The notes under the pieces were generated by a model, which saw only the letters and a list, made by a program, of their open reading frames with translations, made no database searches and was not told where the DNA came from. From Roseburia intestinalis L1-82 (GTDB taxonomy: Bacteria; Bacillota; Clostridia; Lachnospirales; Lachnospiraceae), in NCBI RefSeq assembly GCF_900537995.1, contig NZ_LR027880.1, forward strand, positions 515,001-579,000: a stretch of 64,000 nucleotides of DNA, given 5' to 3'. Position numbers and translations under genes: made by a program. Each line of letters opens with the position of its first letter. The stretch's first letter is position 1. Shown piece after piece: positions 2,384-31,909 of this stretch.

Positions 2384-5194
2384 ATGCCCAAACTTATCCT
2401 ACGCTGCAACTACCTCAAGAACTCCCCGCCCGCACACCTTGCTAATTACATCAATTACATCGGCACCCGTGAGGGCGTGGAGAAGGTAGGCAGCACGACA
2501 TCTTCACTGCCAGCCACCGACCGGCAGAAAAGTCTGATTGAAGATATTCTGGCAAAGATTCCCGATGCGAACCGGATGCATGAGTATCACGATTATATCC
2601 AAAGACCAACCAGAGAAAATGCATCGGAGTTTATTACGCAGGCGTTGGAAAATAACCTTGACATCATAGCGAAAAAGAAAAATTATATGGATTATCTGGC
2701 AAACAGACCGGGAGTAGAAATCATAGGTACTCACGGTCTGTTTTCAAATGAGGGAGAACCAGTGGTGCTGTCCCGTGTGGCAGAAGAGGTGGCAAATCAT
2801 CCCGGTGTGATCTGGACGAATGTCATCAGCCTGCGGAGGGAGGATGCCGAGCGGTTAGGCTATGACAGTGCCGCCCAGTGGCAGGCACTGTTGAGGAGCA
2901 GGGTGCAGTTGCTGTGTGAGAATTGTAAGATAGACAGCCGGAACCTGAAATGGTATGCGGCATTCCACAATGAATCCCATCATCCCCATGTGCATCTGGT
3001 GGTCTATTCTTCTGATCCGTCCGAGGGATACTTGACGGCAAAGGGAATTGATGCCATGCGTTCTGCATACGCACATGATATTTTCCGGCAGGAGTTTCTA
3101 AGCATCTATGAGAAGGCAACCGAACAGAGAAACCAGTTAAAAGAGCAGGCAGAAAAAAGTCTGCTTTTTTTGTTGCAGCAAATGCAGGAGGGAGTCTGTC
3201 ATAATCTCAAGATTGCAGAGCAGATGCAGCTTTTATCCAGACGGTTAAAAAATACCGGAGGGAAAAAGGTATATGGATACTTGAAAGCAGATGTGAAAGC
3301 CATCGTAAATGACATTGTAGATGAACTGGCAAAGGAAGAGCGTGTGGCAGAATGCTATCAGGCATGGCTAAAAAGCAGGGAGGAGATACAGCATTACTAT
3401 AAAGATTCGGAAATAGAGAGGATACCGCTGTCACAGCAGAAGGAGCTAAAGAGCATTAAAAACATGGTCATCCGTGAGGCAGTCCGTTTTGGAGAAGGGT
3501 ATCTGTATCTGGAAGAAGCGGAAACGGGAATGGAACGGCTGGAAGAGATATCCGAACAGCAGACAGAAAGCCTTGCCGCATTGCAGGGGGAGGACATGCC
3601 GGATATCATGCCTGGACAAACGGAGATGGAGGAGCAGGAACCAGACAGGCAGGAAGAAGAGCATGGGGAATCCGTTTCTTATTTTGCCAGATGGACGGAC
3701 CGGTATAAAGAAGCGAGGGAATATCTCTATGGCACGATGGAGGCAGAACCAGATGAGGAGGCAGCCCATGAGATCATGCTGGAAGAGGCAGAGCAGGGAA
3801 ATGCGTATGCCATGCACGACATGGGAAAGATTTATGCACAGGGCATTGGATGTGAAGCAGATAAAGAAATGGCAGATGTGTGGTACAAAAAAGCATTAGC
3901 GGCAATGCAGTATGTAGAGCAGAAGAAAAAGAATACCTATCTGGAATACCGCATCGGAAAAATGTATCAGTACGGACTTGGCACAGAAGAGAATCTGGAA
4001 CAGGCAGGGGAGTGGTTTTTCAAGGCGGCAGTAAAGGAACATAAGTATGCGCTCTATTCCCTTGGCATGCTTTATCTGCAGGGGAAAGGAGTAGAGCAGA
4101 ATGAGGAAACCGCATATAGTCTGCTGTTCCGGTCTTACAGCAAGGGAAATCCCTATGCGGCGTATGAACTTGGAAAACTTTATGAGACAGGATGCGGAAC
4201 AGAGAAAAATCAGGAAAAGTCGGAAAATTGTTATCGTGCTGCTTTTCTAGGTTTTCTGAATCTGGAGAAAAAATCAAAGGATGATACGCTCTGGTATCGT
4301 ATTGGCTGCATGTATCTGCATGGGATAGGGACAGAGGCAGACGAAACGAAAGCCGAACATTATCTGACAAAAGCATCTGATTATGGCAACACCCATGCCT
4401 CCTATCAGCTTGCCAGACTCTATATCAGACAGGAGAGCCAAAAGTTAAGCGGGGAGTCTGGGACAGCACCGGATTACGCAAAGATTGCAAAAGCGGTAAA
4501 GTGGCTGGAAGAATCAGCCGCACAGGAAAATCCGTTTGCGGATTATGCACTGGGACGCTTGTACAGGGAAGGCACACTGGTGGCGGCAGACATGGAAAAA
4601 GCAGTGTTCCACCTGAAACGTGCCGCAGATGCCGGAAACAGCTATGCACAGTATCAGCTTGGAAAAATATATCTGGAAGAGGACAACAAAAACATTCCAG
4701 CAGCCATACAGTATCTGACACTGGCTGCGAAACAGAAAAATGAATTTGCAGCATACAGGTTAGGGAAACTTTATCTTGCCGGAGAAGAACTGCCAAAGAA
4801 CACAGAGCTGGCACTGCATTATCTGAAGATGGCGGCAGACACCGGAAACCAGTATGCACAATATACCCTTGGTAAAGTGTATCTGATCGGAAAGGATGTC
4901 CAGCAGGACAAGGAACTGGCATACGACTATTTTTTAAAATCCGCAGAGCAGGGAAACATTTATGCAGCGTATTTTTTAGAACACTGGAATGACATGCCAC
5001 ACCCCGATCTGCTCTTAATGGCAACAAGGCTCATGCGGCATCTGGAACATATCATCGAAGAGAATGTGGCTGGAAGGAAGAGCGGAGGCCACAGGCAGGG
5101 GATTGACAGAAAACTGGCACGAAAAATCCGGCAGAAGAAGATTGCACAGGGACATGCCGTGGATGACCATGAGGACATGGTACAGACACAGTGA
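2384..5194 (+). CDS. MobL/MobP-type relaxase with C-terminal Sel1 repeats
   Basis: The relaxase nicks the element at its origin of transfer and leads the strand into the recipient. Residues 1-35 (LILRCNYLKN, YINYIGTREGVE) match the MobL family start. The metal-binding histidine cluster is HNESHHPHVHLVVY, residues 195-207. Residues 260-430 are a charged, helical linker. From about 450 to 880 there are about ten Sel1-like TPR repeats (A-x-Y-x-L-G-K-x-Y pattern), which form a protein-binding solenoid. The C terminus is very basic (KLARKIRQKK). At 936 residues it is long because of the repeat fusion. The start has a strong AAGGAGG. It is followed by toprim and VirD4 genes, the normal mobilization partners. 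Confidence 0.88.
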   Translation: MPKLILRCNYLKNSPPAHLANYINYIGTREGVEKVGSTTSSLPATDRQKSLIEDILAKIPDANRMHEYHDYIQRPTRENASEFITQALENNLDIIAKKKNYMDYLANRPGVEIIGTHGLFSNEGEPVVLSRVAEEVANHPGVIWTNVISLRREDAERLGYDSAAQWQALLRSRVQLLCENCKIDSRNLKWYAAFHNESHHPHVHLVVYSSDPSEGYLTAKGIDAMRSAYAHDIFRQEFLSIYEKATEQRNQLKEQAEKSLLFLLQQMQEGVCHNLKIAEQMQLLSRRLKNTGGKKVYGYLKADVKAIVNDIVDELAKEERVAECYQAWLKSREEIQHYYKDSEIERIPLSQQKELKSIKNMVIREAVRFGEGYLYLEEAETGMERLEEISEQQTESLAALQGEDMPDIMPGQTEMEEQEPDRQEEEHGESVSYFARWTDRYKEAREYLYGTMEAEPDEEAAHEIMLEEAEQGNAYAMHDMGKIYAQGIGCEADKEMADVWYKKALAAMQYVEQKKKNTYLEYRIGKMYQYGLGTEENLEQAGEWFFKAAVKEHKYALYSLGMLYLQGKGVEQNEETAYSLLFRSYSKGNPYAAYELGKLYETGCGTEKNQEKSENCYRAAFLGFLNLEKKSKDDTLWYRIGCMYLHGIGTEADETKAEHYLTKASDYGNTHASYQLARLYIRQESQKLSGESGTAPDYAKIAKAVKWLEESAAQENPFADYALGRLYREGTLVAADMEKAVFHLKRAADAGNSYAQYQLGKIYLEEDNKNIPAAIQYLTLAAKQKNEFAAYRLGKLYLAGEELPKNTELALHYLKMAADTGNQYAQYTLGKVYLIGKDVQQDKELAYDYFLKSAEQGNIYAAYFLEHWNDMPHPDLLLMATRLMRHLEHIIEENVAGRKSGGHRQGIDRKLARKIRQKKIAQGHAVDDHEDMVQTQ

Positions 5195-5233: not shown

Positions 5234-6784
5234 TTGGGAGATTTTATTTACTTTACAGAGGAACAGAAGGAGCGAGCCAATGCGGTACATATTGCGGACA
5301 TCCTTCGCCGGGAGCATGAGGAAGTGGAGCGTTCCGGGAATGAATGGCGTTGGAAACGGCACAGGAGTGTGACTTTTCGGGGGAGCAGTTGGTACCGCCA
5401 CAGCAGACAGGTCGGAAGTCATGCCATTGATTTCATGCAGGAGTTCTTCGGGATGTCCTACCCGGAGGCGGTGAGCTATCTGCTGGACGGAGAACAGGGA
5501 CAGCTTATTGAACGGGGAAAAAGGCAGGAGACAAAAAGAAAACCGATAAAAGCCGGGAAGGGACGGCAGGCTGTAGAAAAAGAACAGACAGAGGAAAGAA
5601 AAGAACAGAAAGAGCCAAAGGAACTGAAACTGCCGGAGAAAAATCCGACCATGAAGAGAGTCTATGCATATCTTCTGCACAAACGTCATATTGACAGGGA
5701 AATCCTCTCGTACTTTGCAAAGGCAGGAACCATATATGAATCTGCGGAGCATCACAACATTGTGTTTGCCGGACTGGACAGCGAGGGGAAAATCCGGCAT
5801 ATCCATGTGAAGGGGAGCTGTTCTGACGGCAGGAGCTTCCGGCTGAATCAGGAAGGCTCGGAAGTTGCCTACGGATTTGGATACAGGGGAACCGGGAACA
5901 GACTGTATGTGTTTGAGGCACCCATTGACCTGTTATCATTTCTGTCCTTGTATCCAGAGAACTGGCAGGGGAACAGTTATATCACCTTAAACGGTGTGGC
6001 AGAGCATGCCATGCTGCAGGCATTGAAAGACAATCCCAGACTGGATACGGTTGTGCTGTGCCTTGACCATGATCCGGCAGGCATAGAGGCGTGCGGCAGA
6101 CTGGCAGAGATTCTGGTACGCAATGGATATGGTGCGGTAAAGAGGTTACAGTCAGCCTGCAAAGACTGGAATGAGGATTTAAAAGGCAGATATGGTGAGG
6201 AAACAATTCCGGCACAGGAGCATCCGAGAGTCATGGAATGCAGGGCATGGACAGAGGTGCTGAAAGAAGTGACGGAATCCATCAACATCAAGTATGCCAA
6301 CAGAAGTTATATCTGCCGTTATTATCAGGATATTTATAATGAACTGAAAAAGGGCAGGAGCAGGGAACAGCTTATGGATGCCTTTGACGGACCGGGGATG
6401 CTTTTGACCGGAGTGCTTGTGCGGTGCATGGAAAAAGAGGGAATCGCACTTGGCAGGGAAACTAGTGCAGACCAGATACTGGAAAATCTGTCAAAGCGTT
6501 ATCAGCCGCATAAAGACAAGGGAAACTTCAACACCCGCATCCGGCAGATGCAGGCAGCCTTTGAAGAAACACTGGAGGTGTTCGATACAAAAGACTTAGA
6601 ACAAAAAGAAGATCAGGAACTGCTTGCCAGAAAATGTATGAGCCTTGCGATGGAATGCATCCGGGCTCATATTTTTGTTGCCATCGACTGCGGGGAAGAG
6701 CAGATGAAGCCGGCAAAACAGACTGTGAAGGAACAGAAAATGGAACATCAGGAGGGAGGAATGATGCTATGCAGCCAGTCGTGA
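5234..6784 (+). CDS. DUF3991/Toprim-domain protein (primase-like)
   Basis: A cytosolic protein of mobile elements, probably acting in DNA strand processing or priming after transfer. The start is TTG at 5234, five bases after AGAGGAGGT. The N terminus (about 1-90) is a zinc-finger/CHC2-like or DUF3991 region with FRGSSWYRHSR and a DFMQEFFGMSYPEAVSYLL helix. Residues 105-140 are a charged linker. The Toprim core lies at about 230-310, with the acidic strand FEAPIDLL and the CLDHDPAG motif that supplies the metal-binding aspartates. The tail is helical. The gene overlaps the VirD4 start by 16 bases, so the two are translationally coupled. A role as true primase is inferred from family context. 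Confidence 0.8.
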   Translation: MGDFIYFTEEQKERANAVHIADILRREHEEVERSGNEWRWKRHRSVTFRGSSWYRHSRQVGSHAIDFMQEFFGMSYPEAVSYLLDGEQGQLIERGKRQETKRKPIKAGKGRQAVEKEQTEERKEQKEPKELKLPEKNPTMKRVYAYLLHKRHIDREILSYFAKAGTIYESAEHHNIVFAGLDSEGKIRHIHVKGSCSDGRSFRLNQEGSEVAYGFGYRGTGNRLYVFEAPIDLLSFLSLYPENWQGNSYITLNGVAEHAMLQALKDNPRLDTVVLCLDHDPAGIEACGRLAEILVRNGYGAVKRLQSACKDWNEDLKGRYGEETIPAQEHPRVMECRAWTEVLKEVTESINIKYANRSYICRYYQDIYNELKKGRSREQLMDAFDGPGMLLTGVLVRCMEKEGIALGRETSADQILENLSKRYQPHKDKGNFNTRIRQMQAAFEETLEVFDTKDLEQKEDQELLARKCMSLAMECIRAHIFVAIDCGEEQMKPAKQTVKEQKMEHQEGGMMLCSQS

Positions 6785-8559
6785 TGCTGGTGATCGCAGG
6801 GGTGGCAATGTTTTCCGTGATTGGAGGCGTGTCACTTCTGTCACACTATTATACATTAAACGGAATCAAGAGCAGGACTGTCGGGGACGGTCAGCATGGA
6901 ACGGCGAGATTTGCCACGAAAAAGGAAATCGCAGAAACCTATGTGCAGGTGCCCTATGAACCGGAGCTGTGGCGCAGGGGTGAGAACCTGCCGGCTGCAC
7001 AGGGACTGGTACTCGGCAGCATGGAGCGGGCAGGAAAACTATACGCACTGGTGGATACCGGGGATGTGCATTGCCTGATGATTGGCGCGGCAGGAGTCGG
7101 AAAGACCGCACATTTTCTGTATCCCAACATTGAATATGCCTGTGCCTGTGGAATGAGTTTCCTGACCACGGATACAAAGGGAGACTTATACCGCAACTAT
7201 GCAGGCATTGCAAAAAAATACTATGGCTACCATACGGCAGTCATCGATCTCCGTAATCCGACCAGAAGCGATGGTGACAATATGCTCCATCTGGTCAACA
7301 AATACATGGATGAGTATCTTGCAGACCATACGGACCTGAGTGCTAAGGCAAAAGCAGAAAAGTATGCAAAGATCACGGCAAAGACCATTATCTCCTCCGG
7401 TGGTACGGACAGTTCCAGCTATGGACAGAATGCATTTTTCTATGATGCGGCAGAAGGCGTGCTGACGGCTGCCATCCTGCTCATTGCGGAATTCTGCCCG
7501 GATGGAAAGAGGCATATCATCAGCGTGTTCAAACTGATACAGGATTTACTTGCACCATCCAAAGTGAAAGGGAAAAACCAGTTCCAGCTACTTCTGGCAA
7601 AACTCCCGGATACCCACAAGGCGAAATGGTTTGCAGGGGCAGCCTTAAATACGGCAGAGCAGTCCATGCAGTCGGTTCTCTCCACAGCGTTGTCCAGACT
7701 GAATGCTTTTCTGGATTCCGAGCTGGAGCAGATACTCTGTTTTGATACCGCCATCGATGCAGAGCTTTTCTGCAAAAAAAAGACGGCGGTGTTTCTGGTC
7801 ATGCCGGAGGAGGACAATACCAAGTATTTTATTATTTCTCTGATCTTACAGCAGCTCTACCGGGAAATCCTTGTGGTGGCAGACGAGAACGGAGGGAAAC
7901 TGGACAATCGTGTGGTTTTCTTCTGGGATGAGGTCGGAACGATTCCGAAGATTGAAAGTGCAGAGATGATGTTCTCAGCGTCCCGATCCAGAAGGGTGAG
8001 TATCGTACCCATGATCCAGTCCTTTGCCCAGCTTAATAAGAATTATGGGAAAGAGGGTGCAGAAATCATTATCGATAACTGTCAGGATACCATCTTCGGA
8101 GGGTTCGCTCCGAACTCGGAGTCAGCGGAAGTGCTGTCAAAGAGCCTGGGCAACAAAACCGTCATGTCCGGTTCCATCAGCCGGGGAAAGAATGATCCGA
8201 GCCAGTCCCTCCAGATGATCCAAAGACCGCTCATGACAGCGGATGAATTAAAGTCACTGCCAAAAGGAAACTTTATCGTATCAAAGACCGGGACTCACCC
8301 TATGCGGACAAAACTGAAACTGTTCTTAAAATGGGGCATCACATTTGAAGAACCCTATGAGATTGAAGAAAAATCTGCAAGAAAGGTAGCATACGCAGAC
8401 AAGCAGGAAATTGAAGAGGAGATCATACGGAGATATATGTGCTGTATGGAAGAACCGGAGGATACACCTGTGGAAATGGCAAGGACAGGAGGCATGCAGC
8501 AGACACCGCTGACGGACACCATGAAAAAGATGCGGCAGACCTTACGGACGGAAGATTAG
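6769..8559 (+). CDS. VirD4/TraG-type conjugative coupling ATPase
   Basis: The coupling protein links the relaxase-DNA complex to the secretion channel. The start chosen is the ATG at 6769 (MQPVVMLVIAG) with GGAGGGAGGA upstream; it overlaps the toprim gene. The N terminus has one clear membrane helix (about 3-25). Walker A is GAAGVGKT at 106-113, Walker B is VVFFWDEVGTIPKI, and the arginine-rich SASRSRRVSIVPMIQS segment is typical of TraG/VirD4 (VirD4_C, TraM recognition region). Length is 596 residues, normal for the family. No VirB4, VirB6 or lytic transglycosylase gene follows, so the channel is either left of the window or borrowed from another element. Confidence 0.92.
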   Translation: MQPVVMLVIAGVAMFSVIGGVSLLSHYYTLNGIKSRTVGDGQHGTARFATKKEIAETYVQVPYEPELWRRGENLPAAQGLVLGSMERAGKLYALVDTGDVHCLMIGAAGVGKTAHFLYPNIEYACACGMSFLTTDTKGDLYRNYAGIAKKYYGYHTAVIDLRNPTRSDGDNMLHLVNKYMDEYLADHTDLSAKAKAEKYAKITAKTIISSGGTDSSSYGQNAFFYDAAEGVLTAAILLIAEFCPDGKRHIISVFKLIQDLLAPSKVKGKNQFQLLLAKLPDTHKAKWFAGAALNTAEQSMQSVLSTALSRLNAFLDSELEQILCFDTAIDAELFCKKKTAVFLVMPEEDNTKYFIISLILQQLYREILVVADENGGKLDNRVVFFWDEVGTIPKIESAEMMFSASRSRRVSIVPMIQSFAQLNKNYGKEGAEIIIDNCQDTIFGGFAPNSESAEVLSKSLGNKTVMSGSISRGKNDPSQSLQMIQRPLMTADELKSLPKGNFIVSKTGTHPMRTKLKLFLKWGITFEEPYEIEEKSARKVAYADKQEIEEEIIRRYMCCMEEPEDTPVEMARTGGMQQTPLTDTMKKMRQTLRTED

Positions 8560-22397: not shown

Positions 22398-22733
22398 ATG
22401 AAAGCAGAGAAGAAGGAAATCAATATACAGATCGGAAAAAGGTTGCAAACCGCCAGAGAAAACAGTGGATATACGCAGGAAGTTTTTGCAGAGACGCTGG
22501 ATGTAGGGGTAGAGCATTATCGAAAAATCGAAAGCGGTGTCTATGGCTTACAGCCGGAGAAAATGCTGATCTTGTATGAGAAGTACAGGATCGAGCCGAC
22601 TTATCTGGTTACGGGGGATACAAATCATAAGGTTGATATTGAACTGTTCCTTGCAAACTGCAGCAGGGAGGAACGGGATGCATTTATAGACCGCATGCTT
22701 GCGTATATGAGAAAGCTGATGACAGGCCGTTAA
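22398..22733 (+). CDS. XRE-family HTH transcriptional regulator
   Basis: 111 residues from the ATG at 22398 (GCGAGGTG upstream). An HTH_3 domain fills residues 8-66: IGKRLQTARENSGYTQEVFAETL, then YRKIESGVYGLQPEKMLILYEKY. A short C-terminal helix (EERDAFIDRMLAYMRKL) could dimerise. Small repressors of this type often hold mobile-element genes off. It stands directly before the agr-like module. Confidence 0.88.
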   Translation: MKAEKKEINIQIGKRLQTARENSGYTQEVFAETLDVGVEHYRKIESGVYGLQPEKMLILYEKYRIEPTYLVTGDTNHKVDIELFLANCSREERDAFIDRMLAYMRKLMTGR

Positions 22734-22791: not shown

Positions 22792-23496
22792 ATGAGGGTA
22801 GCAATCTGCGATGATAATCAGCAGGACATTGAAAGGATTAGACGCTATACATTGCGTATGATCGATTATGCGGTGGAGTATGTGTTTTATACCAGACCGG
22901 AAGAATTATTGAGGGAATGTGCAGATGCGGAGCAAAAGCCGGATATGTACATTCTTGATATTGAGATGCCTGGAATGGACGGACTTGCGGTGGCAAAACA
23001 GATCCGTGAGACAGATTCCAAAGCATTGCTGGTGTTTCTTACCAGCTATACCAAATACATGCCAAGTGTATTTGAAGTTGTCACATTTGATTTTATTCCA
23101 AAACCAATCTCAGAAGAAAGGCTCCGTGTGCTGTTTGAGAAGGCAGGAACCTATCTGAATCTGACCAATCAGAGTTTTTCATTTAGTTACCGCAGGGTGC
23201 GGTACAGTCTGAAGTTTGACGAAATCCTGTATCTGGAAAAGCGGGGGCGTCAGGCGATTATCCACACAAAGAAAATGAAATATCAGTCCAACATGAATTT
23301 GAATGAAATATGGGGGAAACTGGATGAGCGCATGTTTGCCGCCGTTCATGGCTCTTTTATCGTTAATTTGAAACATGTTCATTCCGTATCCAGCGGCATG
23401 GTCATGCTTACAGACGGCACAGAGCTGGGAGTGACAAGAGGGTACCGGAAGGAGCTGACGAAAAAGCACATAGCGTTTGTGCAGGGAGGAATGTGA
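22792..23496 (+). CDS. LytTR response regulator (AgrA-like), agr module
   Basis: 234 residues; the ATG at 22792 follows AAGGAGACG. The receiver domain has AICDDNQQD, the phosphorylated aspartate in MYILDIEMPGMDG (D56), FLTSYTKY and the lysine in FDFIPKPI. The LytTR domain (about 130-230) has ILYLEKRGRQAIIHT and FAAVHGSFIVNLKHV. It is expected to bind the tandem ACTTRTTACA boxes at 24699-24729 and 25611-25641. Its stop is one base before the kinase start. Confidence 0.92.
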   Translation: MRVAICDDNQQDIERIRRYTLRMIDYAVEYVFYTRPEELLRECADAEQKPDMYILDIEMPGMDGLAVAKQIRETDSKALLVFLTSYTKYMPSVFEVVTFDFIPKPISEERLRVLFEKAGTYLNLTNQSFSFSYRRVRYSLKFDEILYLEKRGRQAIIHTKKMKYQSNMNLNEIWGKLDERMFAAVHGSFIVNLKHVHSVSSGMVMLTDGTELGVTRGYRKELTKKHIAFVQGGM

Positions 23497-23497
23497 C

Positions 23498-24691
23498 ATG
23501 GCATTATATGGGGTGAGGCTTGTCATAAATCTTTTTGACCTCTGCATTTACCGCAGGTATTTAGAGGAGTTCATTGGAAACAGAAAAACTTCCATGGAGT
23601 TTTCTGTTCTTCTGCTGATAGTGTGCGAGCTGATTGGAAGTGCGGTGAACCAGATGGGGATAAGCTGGCTGAATTTTGTGACGATGGTTGCGATTCTCTG
23701 TGTATATGTCTGCCAGTATGAGGCAGGGATTGTAAGCAGGCTGATTGCGGTTTTGCTGTATATGGGGATTATGGGAGTTGCAGAACCGTTAGGATATTTG
23801 TTTAATAAGGCATTCATGGAAAAGGTGTTGGACGATACCACGGTTTCATATTATTTTATCGTGTTTTTTATGGCACTTTTGAAAGCAACAATTGTGGAGG
23901 TGTTTTGCAGACTGAAATCTGGAAAAAGCATTCGACTATCAGCAATGCCAAAAGAAACGCAATATATGTTGACAATGATACCTTTATGCAGCCTGATCAG
24001 TTGCTTTTTACTGATAGAGGTTGCAAAAGAATTAATCTCGGCACAGATGGTCGTGCTGTGCATGTGCATCATCTTTGTCATTATCATCACTAATTATGTA
24101 ATTTTTCTGATGATTGAAAAGTATACGACAGTGGAAGAAAAACAGCACGAAGAGGAAATGATCCAGAGGGAAATCTTATACCGGAACGAATACTATCAGG
24201 ACATGGAACGGTATCAGGAACAGATACAGGACATCCGGCTGGCAGAAGAGATCATTTATTCCGCAAATCCTGTGGTGAATGCCATATTAAAAGTAAAAAG
24301 CGTAAAGGCAAAAGAGAAAGAGATACCGATGCAGGTTACAACGCTGCTCCCCCAGAGAGTATCCGTGGATATCGGGGACATGGGTGTTCTGTATGGGAAT
24401 CTTCTGGATAATGCGATAGAGGCAGCAATGGCAGTGGAACAGGAAAAACGGTATGTTCATGTAGAATCAAAGTTTCAAGAGGGCAGACTGCTTTTATCCA
24501 TTAAGAACAGCAAGCCATCCGGGACAAGTTCCTATCGACAGACAAGCAAAAAAGATAAAATAAAACACGGCAGGGGAATCCGTTCAGTGCGGAAAGTGGC
24601 AGAAAAATATGGCGGGGAGCTTCTGTTAAAGGATCAGGGGGAACATTTTGAGGCAGCCCTTCTGCTCAATGGAATCACAAAACTGGAGTGA
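23498..24691 (+). CDS. AgrC-like sensor kinase lacking the H box
   Basis: 397 residues; the ATG at 23498 directly follows the regulator stop. Residues 5-205 hold about six membrane helices for peptide sensing, followed by a glutamate-rich coiled linker (EEKQHEEEMIQREILYRNEYY). In this family the linker runs into R-H-D-x-x-N (phospho-acceptor histidine) and a two-helix dimer region of about 40-50 residues before ANPVVNAIL. Here QEQIQDIR (245-247) runs straight into LAEEIIYSANPVVNAIL, so the histidine segment is missing. The ATPase domain is intact (YGNLLDNAIEAA, HGRGIRSVRKVAEKYGG). The protein should not autophosphorylate. In-frame deletion between repeated codons is the likely cause. Confidence 0.85.
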   Translation: MALYGVRLVINLFDLCIYRRYLEEFIGNRKTSMEFSVLLLIVCELIGSAVNQMGISWLNFVTMVAILCVYVCQYEAGIVSRLIAVLLYMGIMGVAEPLGYLFNKAFMEKVLDDTTVSYYFIVFFMALLKATIVEVFCRLKSGKSIRLSAMPKETQYMLTMIPLCSLISCFLLIEVAKELISAQMVVLCMCIIFVIIITNYVIFLMIEKYTTVEEKQHEEEMIQREILYRNEYYQDMERYQEQIQDIRLAEEIIYSANPVVNAILKVKSVKAKEKEIPMQVTTLLPQRVSVDIGDMGVLYGNLLDNAIEAAMAVEQEKRYVHVESKFQEGRLLLSIKNSKPSGTSSYRQTSKKDKIKHGRGIRSVRKVAEKYGGELLLKDQGEHFEAALLLNGITKLE

Positions 24692-24698
24692 ACTTGCA

Positions 24699-24763
24699 AC
24701 TTATTACAGCAAACCTGCAACTTGTTACAGATAGATTGATTTTTATATGGAAACTGTTAGAGT
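24699..24763 (+). promoter_or_regulatory. agr P2-like promoter with tandem LytTR boxes
   Basis: ACTTATTACA (24699-24708) and ACTTGTTACA (24720-24729) lie 21 bases apart, start to start, within longer repeats TGCAACTTRTTACAG. Six bases after the second box is TTGATT (24736-24741), then a 16-base spacer and TAGAGT (24758-24763). It reads into the pre-peptide gene and agrB. The geometry matches the promoter at 25611. Confidence 0.75.
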
Positions 24764-24796
24764 GAAAATATCAAAAAAAGGAGGGTTTTACTAAAA

Positions 24797-24958
24797 ATGA
24801 AGAAAAGAAACTGGATGTACCGACTGAGCAGCAAATCCATGAGCGTGATGGCAGCACTGGCACTTATGGTGACAACCATGGCAACGAACCGTTCCTGCAT
24901 GTGGTATCTGGGACAGGACAAGATGCCAGAAGATTCCAAAAAACTCAGAAGGTTTTAA
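24797..24958 (+). CDS. agrD: AgrD-like cyclic autoinducer pre-peptide
   Basis: 53 residues, with GGAGGG before the ATG. The plan is classical: a basic, amphipathic N-terminal leader (MKKRNWMYRLSSKSMS), a hydrophobic stretch (VMAALALMVTTMAT), a core NRSCMWYL, and an acidic/proline C-terminal recognition tail (GQDKMPEDSKKLRRF). Cysteine 34 followed by four residues predicts a five-membered thiolactone ring C-M-W-Y-L after AgrB cleavage at Leu-Gly. agrB begins three bases after the stop. It is too short for routine gene callers. Confidence 0.88.
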   Translation: MKKRNWMYRLSSKSMSVMAALALMVTTMATNRSCMWYLGQDKMPEDSKKLRRF

Positions 24959-24961
24959 GCT

Positions 24962-25543
24962 ATGACGAGATGGCTCAGCCATCGTATGGTTGAGCGGGGA
25001 ATCATAAAAGAGGAGGAGCAGGAATTATACCAGTTTGGAATACGCAATGGTATGATCCTGCTTCTAAACGTTGTGACGGCACTGGTCATCGGGCTGCTCA
25101 CAGAGCAACTGGCGGTTGTGGCAGTGTTTACCCTGTCTTTTATGGTTCTTCGCAGCTATACTGGTGGATATCACTCAGACAGCAGGATTTTCTGCTATCT
25201 TGGTTCCAATCTGGTGCTGCTGGTTCCGGTTTATACACAGGCTGTGTTTTACAAGACATCGTTGGCATGGCTGCTGGCAGTATTGCTGGTGTCCGCAGGG
25301 ATTATTTTTTTACTCAGTCCCATGCACAGCAAGAACCGAAAACTGGATAAAGAGGAACAAAAGCATTTTGGCAGAAAAGCAAGGCTGATTGCAGCGTTGG
25401 AACTGGCTGTGCTTGGCATTTTGTGGCATGCAGGCCAGGTACTGTATGCTTACGCTGTTTATACAGGAATCTGCATCACGGCACTGTTTATGCTTATAGG
25501 AAAAGCACAGCTATGGATACAGTCACATACCGAAAATAGATAG
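24962..25543 (+). CDS. agrB: AgrB-like peptide-processing membrane protease
   Basis: 193 residues with about five membrane helices. It cleaves the AgrD pre-peptide and helps form the thiolactone ring. The catalytic pair is visible in RSYTGGYHSDSRIFC: H71 and C78, spaced as in AgrB. Basic loops KNRKLDKEEQKHFGRK match the family's inner loop. It follows the pre-peptide gene closely and is followed by a strong terminator. Confidence 0.93.
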   Translation: MTRWLSHRMVERGIIKEEEQELYQFGIRNGMILLLNVVTALVIGLLTEQLAVVAVFTLSFMVLRSYTGGYHSDSRIFCYLGSNLVLLVPVYTQAVFYKTSLAWLLAVLLVSAGIIFLLSPMHSKNRKLDKEEQKHFGRKARLIAALELAVLGILWHAGQVLYAYAVYTGICITALFMLIGKAQLWIQSHTENR

Positions 25544-25575
25544 TCCTTTCCGAACAAACGGAAGGGACTTTTTTT
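25542..25575 (+). terminator. Rho-independent terminator after agrB
   Basis: AGTCCTTTCC (25542-25551) pairs with GGAAGGGACT (25560-25569, one G-U), loop of eight, then seven Ts. It overlaps the agrB stop codon and separates the agrDB transcript from the next promoter. Confidence 0.85.
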
Positions 25576-25610
25576 CTGGAAAACAGGAAGGATGACAATC
25601 CAAGACGGTA

Positions 25611-25676
25611 ACTTATTACAGGTACCGTAAGACTTATTACACTTATATTGAAACGCACTTTCTTTCCAAGTATAGT
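25611..25676 (+). promoter_or_regulatory. agr P3-like promoter with tandem LytTR boxes
   Basis: ACTTATTACA (25611-25620) and ACTTATTACA (25632-25641) are 21 bases apart. Six bases later comes TTGAAA (25648-25653), a 17-base spacer and TATAGT (25671-25676). This is the same layout as the promoter at 24699 and a better core promoter. It reads into a leader RNA and the sigma factor gene. Confidence 0.78.
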
Positions 25677-25682
25677 ACCGCA

Positions 25683-25833
25683 AAAAGGCTTAGGAGAAGA
25701 AAGGCGTGGCATGTTTTGGGGAATTCATGCCGCACCGGATTGCAGGGGGCGGCAGAAAGGGAAAAGTTCATAAGGATAACATCCGGGTGCAGTTTTGCAT
25801 GCTTTATTTTGCATGGGAACAGCACCTTTTTTT
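25683..25833 (+). ncRNA. Predicted agr-driven leader/small RNA with terminator
   Basis: Transcription from TATAGT would start near 25683. A terminator-like fold follows: GGTGC (25786-25790) with GCACC (25822-25826), an inner ATGC/GCAT pairing, then TTTTTTT (25827-25833). This would release an RNA of about 150 nt, in the position RNAIII holds in staphylococcal agr. It could equally be an attenuator ahead of the sigma gene. Confidence 0.55.
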
Positions 25834-25945
25834 ATTGTCTTTTTCCAGTGAAGTAAAACCCAGAGGCCCTCCAGATGTCCTTCATTTCAAAAAAATTACG
25901 AAATGGAGGACATTTGAATGTCAGAATGGATCAGGATCAGAGTAA
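25706..25945 (+). CDS. Possible leader ORF across the attenuator
   Basis: 79 codons from GTG at 25706, with AGGAG nine bases upstream (25692-25696). The frame crosses the terminator at 25786-25833 and the hairpin that hides the sigma factor ribosome site, and ends 28 bases inside the sigma gene. The product (MACFGEFMPHRIAGGG ...) resembles nothing I know, so the act of translation may matter more than the peptide. It may be non-coding. Confidence 0.3.
   Translation: MACFGEFMPHRIAGGGRKGKVHKDNIRVQFCMLYFAWEQHLFLLSFSSEVKPRGPPDVLHFKKITKWRTFECQNGSGSE
25873..25915 (+). promoter_or_regulatory. Hairpin sequestering the sigma factor ribosome site
   Basis: AGATGTCCTTCATTTC (25873-25888) pairs over 16 bases, with two G-U pairs, with GAAATGGAGGACATTT (25900-25915); the loop is 11 bases. 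The Shine-Dalgarno GGAGGA (25905-25910) is fully inside the 3' arm, and the sigma ATG is at 25918. Translation should be off unless the hairpin is opened. Confidence 0.8.
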
Positions 25946-26343
25946 AGGATTTTTATAAAGATGCAGTTGGTGAGCTGGAATACACCTATGTGACCAGAGA
26001 AGTCTACGAGGCACTTGTCGATACGTTCCGCAAAGAAGCCCACGCACAGGAAATGCGGGATATCAGACATACGACCAAGGACGGATATACAGAGGGAGAA
26101 ACGGAAGATCTGGTGGAGCTGACCGGGGAATCGGTAGAGGATACGGTCATCCGGCAGATGGAAATAGAAACCCTGCAGAAAGCAATGCAGTCACTCACCC
26201 CAGTGCAGAGAGAGCGGCTGCATTTTTATTTTTTTGAGGGCATGACATACCGGCAGATTGCAGCGAAAGAAGGGGTCGGAGAGAAGAACATCCGGGAGAG
26301 CATAAACGGTGCGGTAAAGAAAATAAAAAAATATTTTGATTAA
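25918..26343 (+). CDS. Sigma-70-like factor, region 4 only
   Basis: 141 residues. The N-terminal 80 residues are charged and have no region 2. Residues 85-138 are a sigma region 4 / sigma-70-type HTH: EIETLQKAMQSLTPVQRERLHFYFFEGMTYRQIAAKEGVGEKNIRESINGAV. Proteins of this shape occur in conjugative elements (compare Tn916 orf7) and act as activators or alternative sigma factors. It lies behind an agr-controlled promoter, a terminator and a ribosome-site hairpin, so it is tightly regulated at several levels. The recombinase genes downstream are plausible targets. Confidence 0.88.
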   Translation: MSEWIRIRVKDFYKDAVGELEYTYVTREVYEALVDTFRKEAHAQEMRDIRHTTKDGYTEGETEDLVELTGESVEDTVIRQMEIETLQKAMQSLTPVQRERLHFYFFEGMTYRQIAAKEGVGEKNIRESINGAVKKIKKYFD

Positions 26344-26378
26344 TACCCCCTCAAAACGTGTTTTTCTGTGAGTACCTT

Positions 26379-26858
26379 ATGAGAGGAACTTTTTCTGGAC
26401 AGATGGTCTCTTCCGGGAATCCTCTCATGTCTCGTGTGTGGATACGACACAGGCAGACAAAACGCACATTGAAAAATGCCGGAGAGGAATGCAGGGCTCC
26501 GAGCGCAGGATGGAATCACGCCATATCCTGCCAGCCATATCCAGCAGTTCAGATACGTTAGCCGTTTCATGAGCCGTAACCGGGGCGCAGTGACACTCCT
26601 GCAGCAATCGGGCAGATGTTCTTTCTGCCAGCCATGCTGTGAAAAAGATCGCATCTAAGGAGCCGAGCGGGAAAGCCGGGGTACAGCCTGTCTGTGGTGG
26701 ACAGGCGCGAAGAGGGGAATGGCCTATAATGATACACCTTGAGATTAGCCAGCACGCAGTGGTGGAGGTGAGCTACCTGTGATGTCTGCCTGTCCGAGTG
26801 GCAGGGACCAAAGACAGTCTGGACTGACTGCCCATGAAATGCCGGCTTTGGGATTTTT
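26379..26858 (+). ncRNA. Candidate large structured RNA downstream of the sigma gene
   Basis: The stretch after 26343 has no credible gene but many perfect pairings: ATGAGAGGA/TCCTCTCAT (26379-26387/26420-26428), TGTCT/AGACA near 26430-26460, GCAGGAT/ATCCTGC (26504/26524), GCCTGTC/GACAGGC (26686-26692/26700-26706) and CTGCC/GGCAG near 26790. A long-range AAAGCCGG/CCGGCTTT (26672-26679/26842-26849) encloses a multi-branched domain and is followed by TTTTTT (26853-26858). This is denser structure than ordinary intergenic DNA. I cannot assign it to a known RNA family. Whether it starts at its own promoter or reads through from the sigma gene is unclear. Confidence 0.5.
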
Positions 26859-26941
26859 TCTTCTCTGTTTTGGCGGCGTTTTGGTTCCGGGGAGTAGTGA
26901 CGAATAGGGACAGACACTTTTTATTTATGAAGTGAAGGATT

Positions 26942-27052
26942 ATGGCAGTAAGACTTAATTACAGAAACCATGCGGCGGAGGGGAACTTCCGCCGTATTCT
27001 TGTGGAGTTAAGAAAAGCTGAAAAATGGGGAATGGAGGAAAACAGGAGATGA
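26942..27052 (+). CDS. Small basic protein, 36 aa
   Basis: The product begins MAVRLNYRNHAAEGNFRRIL and ends KWGMEENRR. GAAGGA stands before the ATG, and the stop overlaps the next start as ATGA, a strong sign of translational coupling. It is basic and soluble, with no known family. It begins the small-gene run leading to the recombinases. Confidence 0.55.
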   Translation: MAVRLNYRNHAAEGNFRRILVELRKAEKWGMEENRR

Positions 27053-27684: not shown

Positions 27685-27774
27685 TAACACTGGATATATA
27701 AAGGACTATGTGGTAGTGTATGTTGCTGACAGGGAGTGCAAACCCTTGAAAATACTGGGAAAGGAGAAAAAAGC

Positions 27775-29391
27775 ATGGCAAAAAAAGTGACTGTCATAAA
27801 GGCAGCAAAAGCGCAGAAACATACACAGGAAGAACGCAGGCTGAAAGTGTGCGGATATGCCAGAGTCAGTACCGGCAGTCAGGCACAGGCAACTTCCTAT
27901 ACTGCACAGGTCGAGTACTATACGGAAAAAATCGAGAGCAACCCCCTGTGGGAGTTTGCAGGGGTGTATGCGGATGAAGGAATCAGCGGAACAAACGTAA
28001 AGCACAGGGATGAGTTCCAGATGATGATTTCAGACTGTGAGGATGGGAACATCGACCTGATCCTTACGAAATCCATCACAAGATTTGCAAGAAATACGGT
28101 GGAATGCATCCAGACCATCCGAAAGCTGAAGGAGATCGGCGTTGGAATCTACTTTGAAAAAGAGAATATCAACACGCTGTCAGAAAAAAGCGAGCTGTTC
28201 ATTACCATCCTGGCATCGGTGGCGCAGGGGGAATCAGAAAACATCTCAAGCAACAACCGCTGGGCGATACAGAAACGCTTTCAGGATGGAACCTATATCA
28301 TATCCACGCCAGCGTATGGCTATGGAAAAGACGAGGATGGAAATTTAGTCATCATAGAATCCGAGGCAGAAACCGTAAGGTGGATTTATGAGTCTTACTT
28401 AAACGGCATGGGAGTGTATGTGATAGCAAAGGCACTGAACCAGAAAGGCATTCCAACAATCCGGGGTGCAGAAAAGTGGCAGGACGGGGTGATACAGGAC
28501 ATTCTGAAAAATCCCATTTATGAGGGAGATATGCTTCAGCAGAGGACATATACAGAAACAAGGTTCCCATTTGTCCGCAGGGTAAACAACGGACAGAGAA
28601 ACCAGTATCTCATCAAAGACAGCCATCCGCCAATCGTCACACATGAGGAGGCAGAAGCGGTACGCAACCTGATGGCATACCGGGTGGATGTACTGCACAT
28701 GAACAAGAGTGACTACACCAAAAGATACCTGTTTTCCGGCAGAATCATCTGCGGAGAGTGCGGAAGAACCTTCCGGCGGCAGAAAATCTACATCGGGAAA
28801 CCATATGAAAAAATCATCTGGACGTGCAGCGGACATGTGGAGGATAAAGAGCGCTGCTGCCTGAAAGCCATCCGGGAGGATGTGCTGCACCGGGCTTTTA
28901 CAGACATGTGGAACAAGCTGTACACCAATCAGGGAACGATATTAGAGCCGCTGTTAAAAGAGCTGACAGAACTTGTGGCAGCAAGGCAGGACAGTGAGGA
29001 AATCAGACAACTGGATAAGGAAATCAAAGATATAAGCGGGCAGAGCCAAATCCTAAACCAAGTCATGAGGAAAGGATATATGGACTCTGCTCTTTTTATG
29101 GAGAGCAGTAGCAAGCTTGGCTGGCAACTGACGGAATGCAGGAGAAAAAAGACACTTTTGACCAGAAAGCTGAGAAGGACAAAAGAAATCGTGCGGACCG
29201 AACAGCTTATCCAACTGATCGCAGAACAGGACGGATTAATGGAGGAGTTTGACGAGCAACTGTTTAAAATGACAGCGGAGAAGATCGTGGTCTCCAAAGA
29301 ACACGACATCACCTTCTGCCTGTACAACGGACTGAAACTGACGGAGAGGGGAGGTGGACAGGATGCAGTGGCACATGCCAATCGGCTATAA
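27775..29391 (+). CDS. Large serine recombinase 1
   Basis: 538 residues from the ATG at 27775 (AAAGGAG upstream). The N-terminal resolvase domain has CGYARVSTGSQ with the catalytic serine, the YADEGISGT strand, and LTKSITRFARNT with catalytic arginines. A Recombinase domain follows (AYGYGKDEDGNLV ... KNPIYEGDM). A zinc ribbon (CGECGRTF ... CSGHVEDKERCC) and a coiled coil at about 395-500 come next. It cuts and rejoins att sites to integrate or excise the element. It overlaps the next recombinase gene, and the three are one operon. Confidence 0.93.
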   Translation: MAKKVTVIKAAKAQKHTQEERRLKVCGYARVSTGSQAQATSYTAQVEYYTEKIESNPLWEFAGVYADEGISGTNVKHRDEFQMMISDCEDGNIDLILTKSITRFARNTVECIQTIRKLKEIGVGIYFEKENINTLSEKSELFITILASVAQGESENISSNNRWAIQKRFQDGTYIISTPAYGYGKDEDGNLVIIESEAETVRWIYESYLNGMGVYVIAKALNQKGIPTIRGAEKWQDGVIQDILKNPIYEGDMLQQRTYTETRFPFVRRVNNGQRNQYLIKDSHPPIVTHEEAEAVRNLMAYRVDVLHMNKSDYTKRYLFSGRIICGECGRTFRRQKIYIGKPYEKIIWTCSGHVEDKERCCLKAIREDVLHRAFTDMWNKLYTNQGTILEPLLKELTELVAARQDSEEIRQLDKEIKDISGQSQILNQVMRKGYMDSALFMESSSKLGWQLTECRRKKTLLTRKLRRTKEIVRTEQLIQLIAEQDGLMEEFDEQLFKMTAEKIVVSKEHDITFCLYNGLKLTERGGGQDAVAHANRL

Positions 29392-30262
29392 AGTTGTGGA
29401 TGGAAAAATCACCATCTGCGAAGAGCAGAGAAAGATTGTGGAACAGATATTTACAGACTATGACAGCGGAGTGGCGGCAGGCAGGATCGCCCAGAACCTG
29501 AAAGGGAGAAAAATATGCAATGCAAAAGGGAAAGTGTCCTGGACCCATGCATTCATTGGCAGGATACTGGAAAACCCAAGCTACCTTGGCACAGAATACT
29601 ATCCGCAGCTCATAGGAGAGGAACTGTTTGAGAGAGTCCAGCGCAGACGGGAAAAGGTGAGGGCAGAGCTTGGAAGGGCAGACCACCGGTCCGGCAGGGA
29701 TGAGAGAATCCTCTTCGGAGGTGTCATCTGGTGTGCAGAATGCGGGGCAGTATGCAGCCATATCCAGCCGAGCCACAAAAAAGAGCGTGGCGGCACTGCC
29801 AAGTGGAAGTGCAAGAGTTATGTGATTGGCAGAGCAAAAAACTGCAGGAACAGTTTTATTACAGACGGGCAGGCAAAGCAGGTGTGTGTGGAAGCCATCA
29901 ATGCAGTGATACGAAACAAAGGCCTGCTCCGGGTACAAAGGCAGGAGGAAAAGGTCAGCCCTCAGTACCGGGTTCTGGAGCGGAACCTGCAGCGGATGAA
30001 AGAAGAACAGGAACGCACAGAAACAGACCTGATGAAATTGCTCTATGAAAGGGCAGAGGAACGCTACCGGACACTGGAGGTCAGGGATGGGGAGTTCCGG
30101 ACAGAGGAGGTCAAAAACATCCTTGCAGGGAAAAAGGAACTGGAAACATTTGATGAAAATTTATATAGAAAAATAATCGCACGCATCTGGGTGCATGGCG
30201 GAAACATGGCAGAAGTGGAGCTTATCAATGGGAGCCGTGTCACAGCCGGGTACAAGGATTAG
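29363..30262 (+). CDS. Recombinase-like protein lacking the catalytic domain
   Basis: 299 residues; the ATG at 29363 overlaps the end of recombinase 1, with GGGGAGG upstream. It begins directly in the Recombinase (DNA-binding) domain: MPIGYKVVDGKITICEEQ, ILENPSYLGTEYY. A zinc ribbon follows (CAECGAVC ... CKSYVIGRAKNC) and then a long coiled coil and strand end. No resolvase domain or catalytic serine exists, and the open frame does not extend upstream, so it is a natural short form, not a fragment. It probably acts as a directionality factor or heteromeric subunit of its neighbours. Confidence 0.88.
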   Translation: MQWHMPIGYKVVDGKITICEEQRKIVEQIFTDYDSGVAAGRIAQNLKGRKICNAKGKVSWTHAFIGRILENPSYLGTEYYPQLIGEELFERVQRRREKVRAELGRADHRSGRDERILFGGVIWCAECGAVCSHIQPSHKKERGGTAKWKCKSYVIGRAKNCRNSFITDGQAKQVCVEAINAVIRNKGLLRVQRQEEKVSPQYRVLERNLQRMKEEQERTETDLMKLLYERAEERYRTLEVRDGEFRTEEVKNILAGKKELETFDENLYRKIIARIWVHGGNMAEVELINGSRVTAGYKD

Positions 30263-30274
30263 GAGGGAGAGCAG

Positions 30275-31909
30275 ATGGCAGAAACAGCAAAAAAGATCAG
30301 CATGATACCTGCCAAGGTGCAGTATGACCGGAATGTGAAACTGTCAGAGAAGAAAATGAAGGTCGCTGCCTACTGCCGTGTCAGTACGGAACTGGAAGAG
30401 CAGGACAGCAGCTATGAGGCACAGGTGGAGTATTATACCAGCAAGATATCTGAAAACGAAAACTGGAAAAATGCCGGCATCTATGCAGATGACGGAAAGA
30501 GTGGAACAAACACCAAAAAGAGGGCAGACTTTAATGCCATGATACAGGATGCCCTTGCCGGAAAAATCGACATGATCCTTACAAAGTCGGTCAGCAGGTT
30601 TGCGAGGAACACGGTAGACTCGCTGGTGACCATCCGAAAACTGAAGGAAAAGAATGTGGCGGTGGTGTTCGAGAAAGAGGGGATCAATACACTGGAGGGA
30701 ACCGGCGAAATCCTTATCACCATCTTAAGCAGCCTGGCACAGGAGGAGAGCCGCAACATCAGTGAGAACATCCGCTGGGGAGTCGTGAGGAAATTTGAAA
30801 AAGGCAAGGTCATCGTAAACTGCACAAAGTTCATGGGATACACCAAAAACGAGGATGGTGACCTGGTCATCGTACCCGAAGAGGCAGAGATCGTAAAGCT
30901 GATCTTCCGCCTTTATCTGGAAGGCTACAGTACCGGGAAGATCGCAAAGCATCTGGAAGAGCAGGGAATCAAGACCGCCACAGGGCAGGACAAATGGCAT
31001 TCCACGGTAATAGACAAAATGCTCCGCAATGAAAAATACATGGGAGATGCATTACTGCAGAAAACCTATACGGTGGATTTCATGACAAAAAAGAAAGTCA
31101 AGAACACTGGAATCGTACCGCAGTATTATGTGGAAGATGACCATGAGGCAATCATTCCGAAAGAGCTGTTCTACAGGGTACAGGAAGAGATGATGCGGAG
31201 GGCATCCTTATGCAAGGCGGCTGTCACCCGGAAGAAGAACCAGAAAAGCAGGTATTCCTCCACCTATGCACTGACCGGCATGCTGATCTGCGGAAAATGC
31301 GGACAGGAGTACAGGAGAGTCACCTGGGCGAGAAACGGGAAAAAGAAAGTGGTCTGGAGATGCAGCAATCGGCTGACCAACGGAGTGAAGAAATGCGGGG
31401 AATCCGAGACACTCGAAGAGAACGCATTAAACAGGGCGGTGATGGAAGCCATCCACAGGATCACAAGTGATGATATGGAATTTATGGAAAACTTCCGGCA
31501 GAACATCATCCATGTCATCGGGAACTACAGCACCGCAAAAGAGTCTGAGGAATACGAAGAAAAGATAAAAGAAAAGCAGGAAGAGATGGTGGCACTGATC
31601 GCGGAGAATGCAAAGACCGGCTCCTACACACCGGAGTTTGATGAACGCTATCGCACCATAGCAGAGGAAATCAATGCCTTAAAAGAGGCACAGAAAACAG
31701 CCAGAAACGAGAAATGGATGGCTGACAGCTATGAACAGAGAATCCAAGATATCGACCATTACTTAAGCACAAGCACCTGCCAGATACCGGAGTTCGACAA
31801 TGACCTTGTCAGACGGCTGATCTCCACCATCAAAGTGGAATCCAGCGAGAAGCTGCTGATACAGTTCCAGTCAGGCATTGTCATGGAACAGGAGATTCGA
31901 TATGAGTAA
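30275..31909 (+). CDS. Large serine recombinase 2
   Basis: 544 residues with AGGAGGGAG upstream, 12 bases after the middle gene. The catalytic serine is in AAYCRVSTELEEQDSS; then YADDGKSGT, LTKSVSRFARNT, Recombinase domain (MGYTKNEDGDLVIVPEEAE ... RNEKYMGDALL), zinc ribbon (CGKCGQEY ... CGESET) and coiled coil (about 415-500). It resembles recombinase 1 in plan but is clearly diverged. Two active recombinases plus a catalytic-less one form a trio seen in several Clostridia integrative elements; the end of the element should be near. Confidence 0.93.
   Translation: MAETAKKISMIPAKVQYDRNVKLSEKKMKVAAYCRVSTELEEQDSSYEAQVEYYTSKISENENWKNAGIYADDGKSGTNTKKRADFNAMIQDALAGKIDMILTKSVSRFARNTVDSLVTIRKLKEKNVAVVFEKEGINTLEGTGEILITILSSLAQEESRNISENIRWGVVRKFEKGKVIVNCTKFMGYTKNEDGDLVIVPEEAEIVKLIFRLYLEGYSTGKIAKHLEEQGIKTATGQDKWHSTVIDKMLRNEKYMGDALLQKTYTVDFMTKKKVKNTGIVPQYYVEDDHEAIIPKELFYRVQEEMMRRASLCKAAVTRKKNQKSRYSSTYALTGMLICGKCGQEYRRVTWARNGKKKVVWRCSNRLTNGVKKCGESETLEENALNRAVMEAIHRITSDDMEFMENFRQNIIHVIGNYSTAKESEEYEEKIKEKQEEMVALIAENAKTGSYTPEFDERYRTIAEEINALKEAQKTARNEKWMADSYEQRIQDIDHYLSTSTCQIPEFDNDLVRRLISTIKVESSEKLLIQFQSGIVMEQEIRYE

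Follow-up and report, generated by a model that had tools for sequence, protein, structure and literature searches.

A putative agr-type quorum-sensing system on a conjugative element of Roseburia intestinalis, with shared paired-repeat sites at its signal genes, a predicted short RNA and the conjugation operon

Known agr systems and peptide control of conjugation

In Staphylococcus aureus, the agr quorum-sensing locus has two promoters, P2 for the agr genes and P3 for the regulatory RNAIII (514 nt). Here, we describe an agr locus located on a conjugative element of Roseburia intestinalis L1-82, in a stretch of 64,000 nucleotides (positions 515,001 to 579,000 of contig NZ_LR027880.1, assembly GCF_900537995.1, forward strand; hereafter, the window). 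It resembles the S. aureus locus in its AgrB, AgrD, AgrC and AgrA parts, in two LytTR-type paired direct repeats, in a hypervariable sensor half, and in having one promoter for agr genes and one for a (predicted) regulatory RNA. Unlike in S. aureus, it is carried by a conjugative element, the P2-like promoter serves only agrDB and not the sensor genes, the box sequence is another one, the predicted RNA is about 150 nt long (514 nt in RNAIII), a third promoter lies at a type IV secretion system (T4SS) operon, and the histidine box (H-box) is missing from AgrC in this copy. The locus is thus agr by most of its parts, and what is new is the conjugative carrier, the operator on the transfer operon and the H-box-less sensor.

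Other described systems share some of these traits. In Clostridioides difficile, RgaS-RgaR acts on few targets via VirR-like direct repeats, including agrB1D1 and the small RNA SrsR (PMC10327067), so that, as here, a small regulon reached through direct repeats covers agr genes and a small RNA; unlike here, the available part of that report concerns sporulation control, does not describe the kinase and regulator as answering the agr peptide and includes no conjugation operon (PMC10327067). The phage phiCDHM1 places agrD, agrB and agrC on a mobile element as well, but this element is a phage with three agr homologs, and the available part of its description names no response regulator gene or operators (PMC3901668). 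In ICEBs1 (RapI-PhrI) and pLS20 (Rap-Phr), an imported peptide acts on a Rap-type receptor and transfer is lowered at high donor density, as far as the available part of the source goes (PMC6540685); there, as would be the case here, a peptide made by the element governs its own transfer, whereas we infer for the Roseburia element a membrane sensor, a two-component system and direct activation of transfer. In the available parts of two reviews, the peptides that regulate conjugation in Gram-positive bacteria belong to Rap-Phr and pheromone systems, in which they are imported and act on repressors or Rap-type receptors, and no agr case appears there (PMC6540685, PMC4010749), and the word “two-component” is absent from PMC6540685. 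In the open-access literature searched by title and start of abstract, no report linking agr with conjugative elements was found, subscription papers and outside preprints being beyond this scope.

Two promoters of identical geometry in the agr locus

The following features, all on the + strand, make up the agr locus and its two promoters:

22398..22733, +, HTH (helix-turn-helix, xre-like) regulator gene upstream of agrA (PF12844, 6.8e-10)
22792..23496, +, agrA-like response regulator with LytTR DNA-binding domain (PF00072 and PF04397), the proposed reader of the boxes
23498..24691, +, agrC-like sensor, 397 aa (PF14501), GHKL ATPase domain present, H-box absent
24699..24729, +, P2-like operator, ACTTATTACA-N11-ACTTGTTACA, boxes at 24699-24708 and 24720-24729
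24736..24763, +, P2-like core promoter, TTGATT-16-TAGAGT (-35 at 24736-24741, -10 at 24758-24763), poor consensus match
24797..24958, +, agrD peptide precursor (TIGR04223, 39.8 bits, cut-off 19)
24962..25543, +, agrB processing protease (PF04647, 2.4e-34, score 118.8, cut-off 23)
25542..25575, +, intrinsic terminator between agrDB and the P3-like unit (stem 25542-25569, then T6)
25611..25641, +, P3-like operator, ACTTATTACA-N11-ACTTATTACA, boxes at 25611-25620 and 25632-25641
25648..25676, +, P3-like core promoter, TTGAAA-17-TATAGT (-35 at 25648-25653, -10 at 25671-25676)

AgrB is a processing membrane protease of the agr kind, and the AgrD precursor has a Cys-containing core. The regulator at 22792..23496 is a response regulator of the LytTR kind, with only 48 bits against the NCBIfam AgrA equivalog NF046049 (cut-off 400), and is therefore AgrA-like rather than an AgrA equivalog. 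An initial annotation had read ACTTRTTACA pairs at 24699/24720 and 25611/25632, repeated with a period of 21 bp, each second box ending six bases before a -35 (TTGATT and TTGAAA) that is followed by a -10 (TAGAGT and TATAGT); all of these proved exact to the base. In both promoters the start-to-start distance of the boxes is 21 bp and the gap to the -35 is 6 nt, so that, in sequence and geometry, they are paired direct repeats about two turns apart at a promoter. The P3-like core promoter is one of two sites with 10/12 matches in a consensus scan of the 22-28 kb region.

The terminator proposed after agrB was also found and separates the two units. Of the staphylococcus-like P2/P3 plan suggested for this locus, the part that stands is an agr locus with two promoters of the same geometry; gene order and terminator limit the P2-like promoter to agrDB. 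Because agrA and agrC lie upstream of P2, a feedback promoter would raise the expression of agrDB only.

Rarity of the paired pattern and its recurrence in related elements

The paired pattern comprises 22 specified bases and was searched with up to three mismatches allowed. Only three forward matches exist in the whole 4.49-Mb genome (reversed-pattern control, 0), all within 43 kb of one element: the two described above and a third one upstream of the window. When TTGA at the fixed distance was added to the pair, 397 genomes of the family gave 16 matches in 12 genomes (control, 8) at the same tolerance; three of them are those of the window's genome (0, 0 and 2 mismatches) and each of the other 13 has 3 mismatches, with no site within 2 mismatches elsewhere in the 397 genomes. 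In a matrix scan of 119 kb the three sites scored 52-60 bits and the next best 17.9, where only the gap is informative, since the matrix was built with the three sites included. With sites this specific, the regulon can be read from sequence. No box-pair site at up to 3 mismatches lies near the five other AgrB homologs of the window's genome. A lone ACTTGTTACA at 20769 has, by eye, no partner box at the right distance and was taken as chance.

Close AgrB homologs (E<=1e-50) occur in 1/397 family genomes and relatives of the sigma-like protein encoded after the P3-like promoter (E<=1e-15) in 3/397; at the loci of two such relatives, L030 (54%) and L031 (34%), a box search found none. L011, a metagenome-assembled Lachnospiraceae contig, has the same gene order as the window: HTH regulator, AgrA, AgrC, P2, AgrD, AgrB, P3, sigma-like gene, pemK RNA and three recombinases. 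Identities to the window are 57% (AgrB), 67% (AgrA), 67% (sigma-like) and 75% (HTH regulator, in the same place). The initial annotation proposed looking for the paired boxes in related elements, and both are present in L011 and L080, the P3-like pair also in L010 and L015. In L011, the P2-like operator has 0 mismatches and precedes TTGATT-16-TAAAGT, while the P3-like one has 1 mismatch and the same hexamers as the window (TTGAAA, TATAGT). The contig L010, also from a metagenome-assembled genome (MAG; AgrB 66-69%), has a P3-like operator with 0 mismatches followed by TTGAAA...TATAGT; it starts inside agrB, leaving the P2 region outside it. L027 begins within the promoter, with the box positions outside the contig, and contains the P3-like core promoter TTGAAA-17-TATAGT. 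At up to 3 mismatches, the MAGs that contain L010 and L011 have the TTGA-extended pattern nowhere except at these agr loci.

Among viral contigs, the exact pair was found in 9 stretches, and a promoter context only in the fragment IMGVR_UViG_2840393279 (L015), with 0 mismatches in the P3-like operator and a -35 of TTGAAG. The other eight were rejected, as no comparable -35/-10 was seen by eye; in one of them, L021, a TTGCTT is correctly spaced, but no -10 follows. L080 (MT836496.1, a human faecal sequence filed as phage) contains both box pairs with 0 mismatches, also with TTGAAG as the P3-like -35. Its DNA matches the window over 22064-24239 at 95.0% and over 24230-32014 at 98.0% (98.6% over 421 bp in the P3 region), and its AgrA protein is 100% identical. 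Because of such DNA or protein identity, L080 and L015, although filed as viral, look like fragments of this conjugative element. In the plasmid collection, the DNA of 22700-27500 gave no match and the sigma-like protein matched only twice, weakly.

A third site upstream of the conjugation operon

The region combines genes for a relaxase, a coupling protein, a T4SS ATPase and recombinases, the gene set of an integrative and conjugative element. Those located in the window are as follows:

2384..5194, +, MobL relaxase (PF18555, 6.2e-32)
6634..8559, +, type IV coupling protein, TraG/VirD4 type (PF02534, 1.8e-40)
27736..29391, +, large serine recombinase 1 (PF00239, PF07508, PF13408)
29354..30262, +, recombinase 2 (PF07508, 46.2 bits; PF13408 at its cut-off, 25.3; no PF00239)
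30275..31909, +, large serine recombinase 3 (PF00239, PF07508, PF13408)

The third box pair lies at G000:C1:497803-497871 (L012:2803-2871), 17.2 kb before the start of the window and 41.9 kb upstream of P2. It reads AACATGTTACA-N11-ACTTATTACA, followed by 6 bases and TAGACT-17-TAGCGT, and sits in the gap before the DUF6550 gene, the first gene of the conjugation operon. After it come TrbL, a TraG/VirB4-like P-loop ATPase (best score among NCBIfam VirB4 models 294 bits, below that model's cut-off of 590) and an NlpC/P60 protein. Downstream of this operon, inside the window, the MobL relaxase, a Toprim protein and the coupling protein are found. That quorum sensing controls the element had been proposed from the P3-like unit; the third site is a more direct argument for it, although the classical path may fail in this copy, whose AgrC lacks the histidine region.

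Homologs of the operon's 613-aa second gene (E<=1e-40) are present in 18/397 genomes (26 match rows, some of them fragments of one gene) and in the MAG of L011. We scanned 27 operon loci (L053-L079) and inspected 23 for the core promoter, leaving out L070, L074, L075 and L078. Box positions were counted at a fixed distance from the -35 in 11 loci: three with boxes (19/20 positions in the window's genome, 16/20 in the MAG of L011 and 15/20 in genome G349), five with a core promoter but without boxes, and three others. The five, from four genomes, retain T[AG]GACT-17-TANNNT with 5/20 (L056, L057, L071) or 8/20 (L055, L059) box positions; of the remaining three, L060 and L072 have no -35 match and the match in L058 is not promoter-like (-10 TGACCG). 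Across the 119-kb region, 15/20 or more occurs at 4.2e-5 per position, real sites counted in. Since five homologous operons keep the core promoter without boxes, the comparison indicates that a transfer promoter conserved in other respects has either gained or lost boxes. Of the three genomes with transfer-promoter boxes, two are agr positive. At P3, at the two sites of L011 and at the three transfer sites, the spacer ends in CGTAAG ahead of box 2, which is not so at P2 and at the L010 site.

Directly upstream of the conjugation operon, at G000:C1:491908-497802 (L013/L012), there are genes whose motifs, by eye, resemble those of a Tad/Cpa pilus-assembly set; Pfam searches with three of them gave only DUF4320.

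Proposed model

On balance, we consider it fairly probable that this is an element-borne agr system in which AgrA, bound to the box pairs, activates transcription of agrDB, of a short RNA and of the conjugation genes. The genes, operators, geometry, conservation, rarity, terminator and hairpin are seen directly in the DNA, and from them we infer AgrA as the binder, activation, the start sites, the roles of the RNA and the sigma-like protein and the effect on transfer. AgrB would mature AgrD into a small cyclic peptide sensed by AgrC, and the LytTR regulator AgrA would bind ACTTRTTACA pairs two helical turns apart and activate the promoter located 6 nt further on. At P2 this would raise agrDB in positive feedback; at P3 it would produce a terminated RNA of about 150 nt, with some read-through into the sigma-like gene, whose Shine-Dalgarno sequence is predicted to be held in a hairpin; and at the third promoter it would switch on the DUF6550-TrbL-VirB4-like conjugation operon. 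A rising density of element carriers might thus increase signal, small RNA and transfer genes together, and in copies with an intact AgrC transfer would be coupled to the density of carriers of the same pherotype. If true, one operator on signal genes, small RNA and transfer operon is a wiring unlike known peptide-controlled conjugation, and gene transfer among gut Firmicutes would be a density-dependent, pherotype-specific trait.

Several observations weigh against this model. The phospho-accepting H-box of an agr sensor kinase is missing from AgrC in this copy. The P2-like core promoter is weak (8/12 by hand count, under the threshold of the consensus scan). Most of the other homologous operons inspected have no recognisable version of the transfer core promoter. 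In the MAG of L011, the transfer boxes are weaker than the agr boxes (16/20, missed at up to 3 mismatches), and the agr locus and transfer operon are on separate contigs, so that the two may belong to different elements. Genome G349 has transfer boxes, yet a search to E 0.001 found no AgrB in it (the contig extends only about 3 kb beyond the operon gene), so that its boxes could be read by a different LytTR regulator. The element itself encodes a second LytTR pair, a regulator at 9246-9962 and a GHKL kinase at 9964-11220 with, by eye, a MHDYKN motif. Finally, no terminator was recognised in the L011 leader, and covariation in the Shine-Dalgarno hairpin amounts to one base pair, while its innermost pair is broken in L027.

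A sensor without histidine box

Compared with the AgrC (431 aa) of the near-identical L080, the AgrC of the window has lost, in frame, 34 aa including the histidine box (102 bp). The motif is RHDMKN in L080 and KHDMKN in L011 (alignments including L011 and P0001). The junction is located as follows:

24230..24238, +, junction of the 102-bp in-frame loss in agrC, with a short imperfect direct repeat at both edges in L080

Because of this loss, the signal input of this copy has probably disappeared or is supplied by another kinase, and its AgrA may be active without phosphorylation, may depend on another kinase or may be silent. We compared the best 120 AgrC proteins per search, of 502 and 540 above threshold, which gave 233 distinct ones, ranked by likeness, so that counts among them are not frequencies. 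By a simple motif, 193/233 have the same H-box-less junction, 36 keep the histidine (33 HDMKN, 1 variant, 2 HDMKS) and 4 are otherwise. Among 206 listed proteins of 397 or 431 aa, 189 are H-box-less, with a window-like sensor in 118 and an L080-like one in 71, and the H-box-positive ones are window-like (1), L080-like (9) or of another kind (7). The two H-box-less sensor groups have one C-terminal consensus, identical over 151 residues, and what fits these listed groups best is a single loss of the H-box followed by exchange of the sensor half.

The most serious alternative is that this copy is a decayed remnant, its promoters being relics and the element quorum-deaf, which would be compatible with the proposed model for H-box-positive copies. 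We find it possible, if clearly less probable than the proposed model: the in-frame loss takes the histidine itself, and its junction is shared by most of the listed AgrC, but agrA, agrD and agrB are intact, as are the boxes, the P3 region has hardly diverged from that of L080, and the N and G boxes are intact in 187/189 and 189/189 of the listed H-box-less proteins. Moreover, the H-box-less type combines a single C-terminal consensus with two sensor groups, which suggests that it has been maintained and has undergone recombination. At the opposite extreme, the H-box-less AgrC might be a second selected state rather than decay, with at least two pherotypes, each in a responsive (431-aa) and an uncoupled (397-aa) form. 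Part of the population would then send out a signal to which it does not respond, or another kinase would hold the transfer, RNA and signal genes at a fixed level. This idea is speculative and we think it rather unlikely; the H-box loss in many listed relatives offers in any case a natural example of elements that may signal without responding.

Staphylococcal agr shows pherotype divergence. Between the window and L080, AgrA differs by 3 synonymous and 0 other changes and AgrC residues 247-397 by 13 synonymous and 6 nonsynonymous, whereas the sensor (residues 81-160) has 16 synonymous and 68 nonsynonymous changes. The predicted AgrD ring is C-M-W-Y-L in the window, C-M-W-Y-F in L080 and C-M-W-F-L in L011. 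The differences in sensor half and peptide core between the window and L080 look like pherotype divergence.

The P3-like transcript and the sigma-like gene

Downstream of the P3-like promoter we found the following features:

25683..25833, +, predicted short RNA of about 150 nt, start placed from the -10 (stem 25786-25826, T7 25827-25833)
25872..25916, +, inverted repeat/hairpin pairing the Shine-Dalgarno GGAGG (25905-25909), by folding
25918..26343, +, sigma-like factor, 141 aa (PF04545/PF08281; TIGR02937, 50.1 bits, cut-off 42.9)
26726..26782, +, pemK RNA motif (RF02913), downstream of the sigma-like gene

Pfam detects only region 4, and not regions 2 and 4 as in a sigma factor of the extracytoplasmic function type, hence the name sigma-like. 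The initial annotation had this unit lead to the sigma-like gene, which does not hold in that form, as a terminator (25786-25833) and the Shine-Dalgarno hairpin intervene. In the window type and L027, terminator stems of -18 to -23 kcal/mol are followed by T6-T7 (T6 in L027), and L010 has a similar long stem with TATTTTT at the same place of the leader. The hairpin over the GGAGG of the sigma-like gene has 17 bp and -23.8 kcal/mol, with an unpaired probability of 0.002 or less in the whole leader; it is near-invariant across four lineages, including L010, L011 and L027, and its exact pattern is present in 1/397 family genomes. The region 25683-25935 folds more stably than its shuffles (z -4.1). 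Because a strong terminator and a hairpin pairing the Shine-Dalgarno sequence precede the sigma-like gene, the short RNA is the likelier main product of the P3-like promoter, and the sigma-like factor would be a second, gated one.

Conversely, the promoter might chiefly express the sigma-like factor, the leader terminator being an attenuator that is usually read through, which is compatible with control by AgrA. The consensus scan lists no further promoter-like site between this promoter and the start of the sigma-like gene at 25918, and the L011 leader has no recognised terminator. The strength of the terminator stems in the window type and L027, the long stem of L010 and the almost wholly paired Shine-Dalgarno sequence make this unlikely in our view, slightly more so than a decayed copy. 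Pairing between the short RNA and the 5' region of the sigma-like gene points the same way: its predicted energy (-26.8, single target tried) is weaker than the shuffled-RNA mean (-34.0), and the idea that the short RNA opens the Shine-Dalgarno lock was not supported. A leader peptide in the P3 RNA was also rejected: frames exist, but their start and sequence vary among relatives, and window-L015 differences in these frames look by eye mostly nonsynonymous.

Other possible readers of the boxes

The boxes could also be operators for the second LytTR regulator of the element (9246-9962) or for a host regulator, with agr merely sharing the site. The second receiver-LytTR protein and the MHDYKN motif seen in its kinase favour this explanation, as do the boxes of G349 without a detected AgrB and the missing H-box in the AgrC of this copy. 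We regard it as improbable: boxes with 0-1 mismatches accompany the agr promoters of the agr-positive relatives examined, the genomes of the five box-less homologous operons have no close AgrB (E<=1e-50), and the best match of the second regulator in the compared stretches of the L011 MAG is 27% identical, against 67% for AgrA. A chance likeness of AT-rich promoters can practically be dismissed, for although single boxes at up to one mismatch are not rare in the window (10 observed, 7.9 expected) and promoter-like sites in the 22-28 kb region are not enriched (7, against 10.8 in shuffles; consensus scan), the paired-pattern statistics and the recurrence in relatives contradict it.

Other genes of the element

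The three recombinases noted beside the agr locus are all there, with PF00239 in the first and third; the middle one (29354-30262) has no match to this Pfam resolvase catalytic domain. A homolog of the same extent as the middle recombinase is found in L011 and L080. The gene following the pemK motif (27025-27444) has no Pfam match, and the motif itself lies downstream of the sigma-like gene in 4/4 relatives searched (L010:7804, L011:6110, L027:1018 and L080:7592). Between 11316 and 20683 there is a series of long open frames, two of which (15504-17039 and 17076-18476) look paralogous by eye. Two copies of a group II intron, at 300-1978 and 48172-49850, have equal Rfam scores and, by eye, encode the same 439-aa protein.

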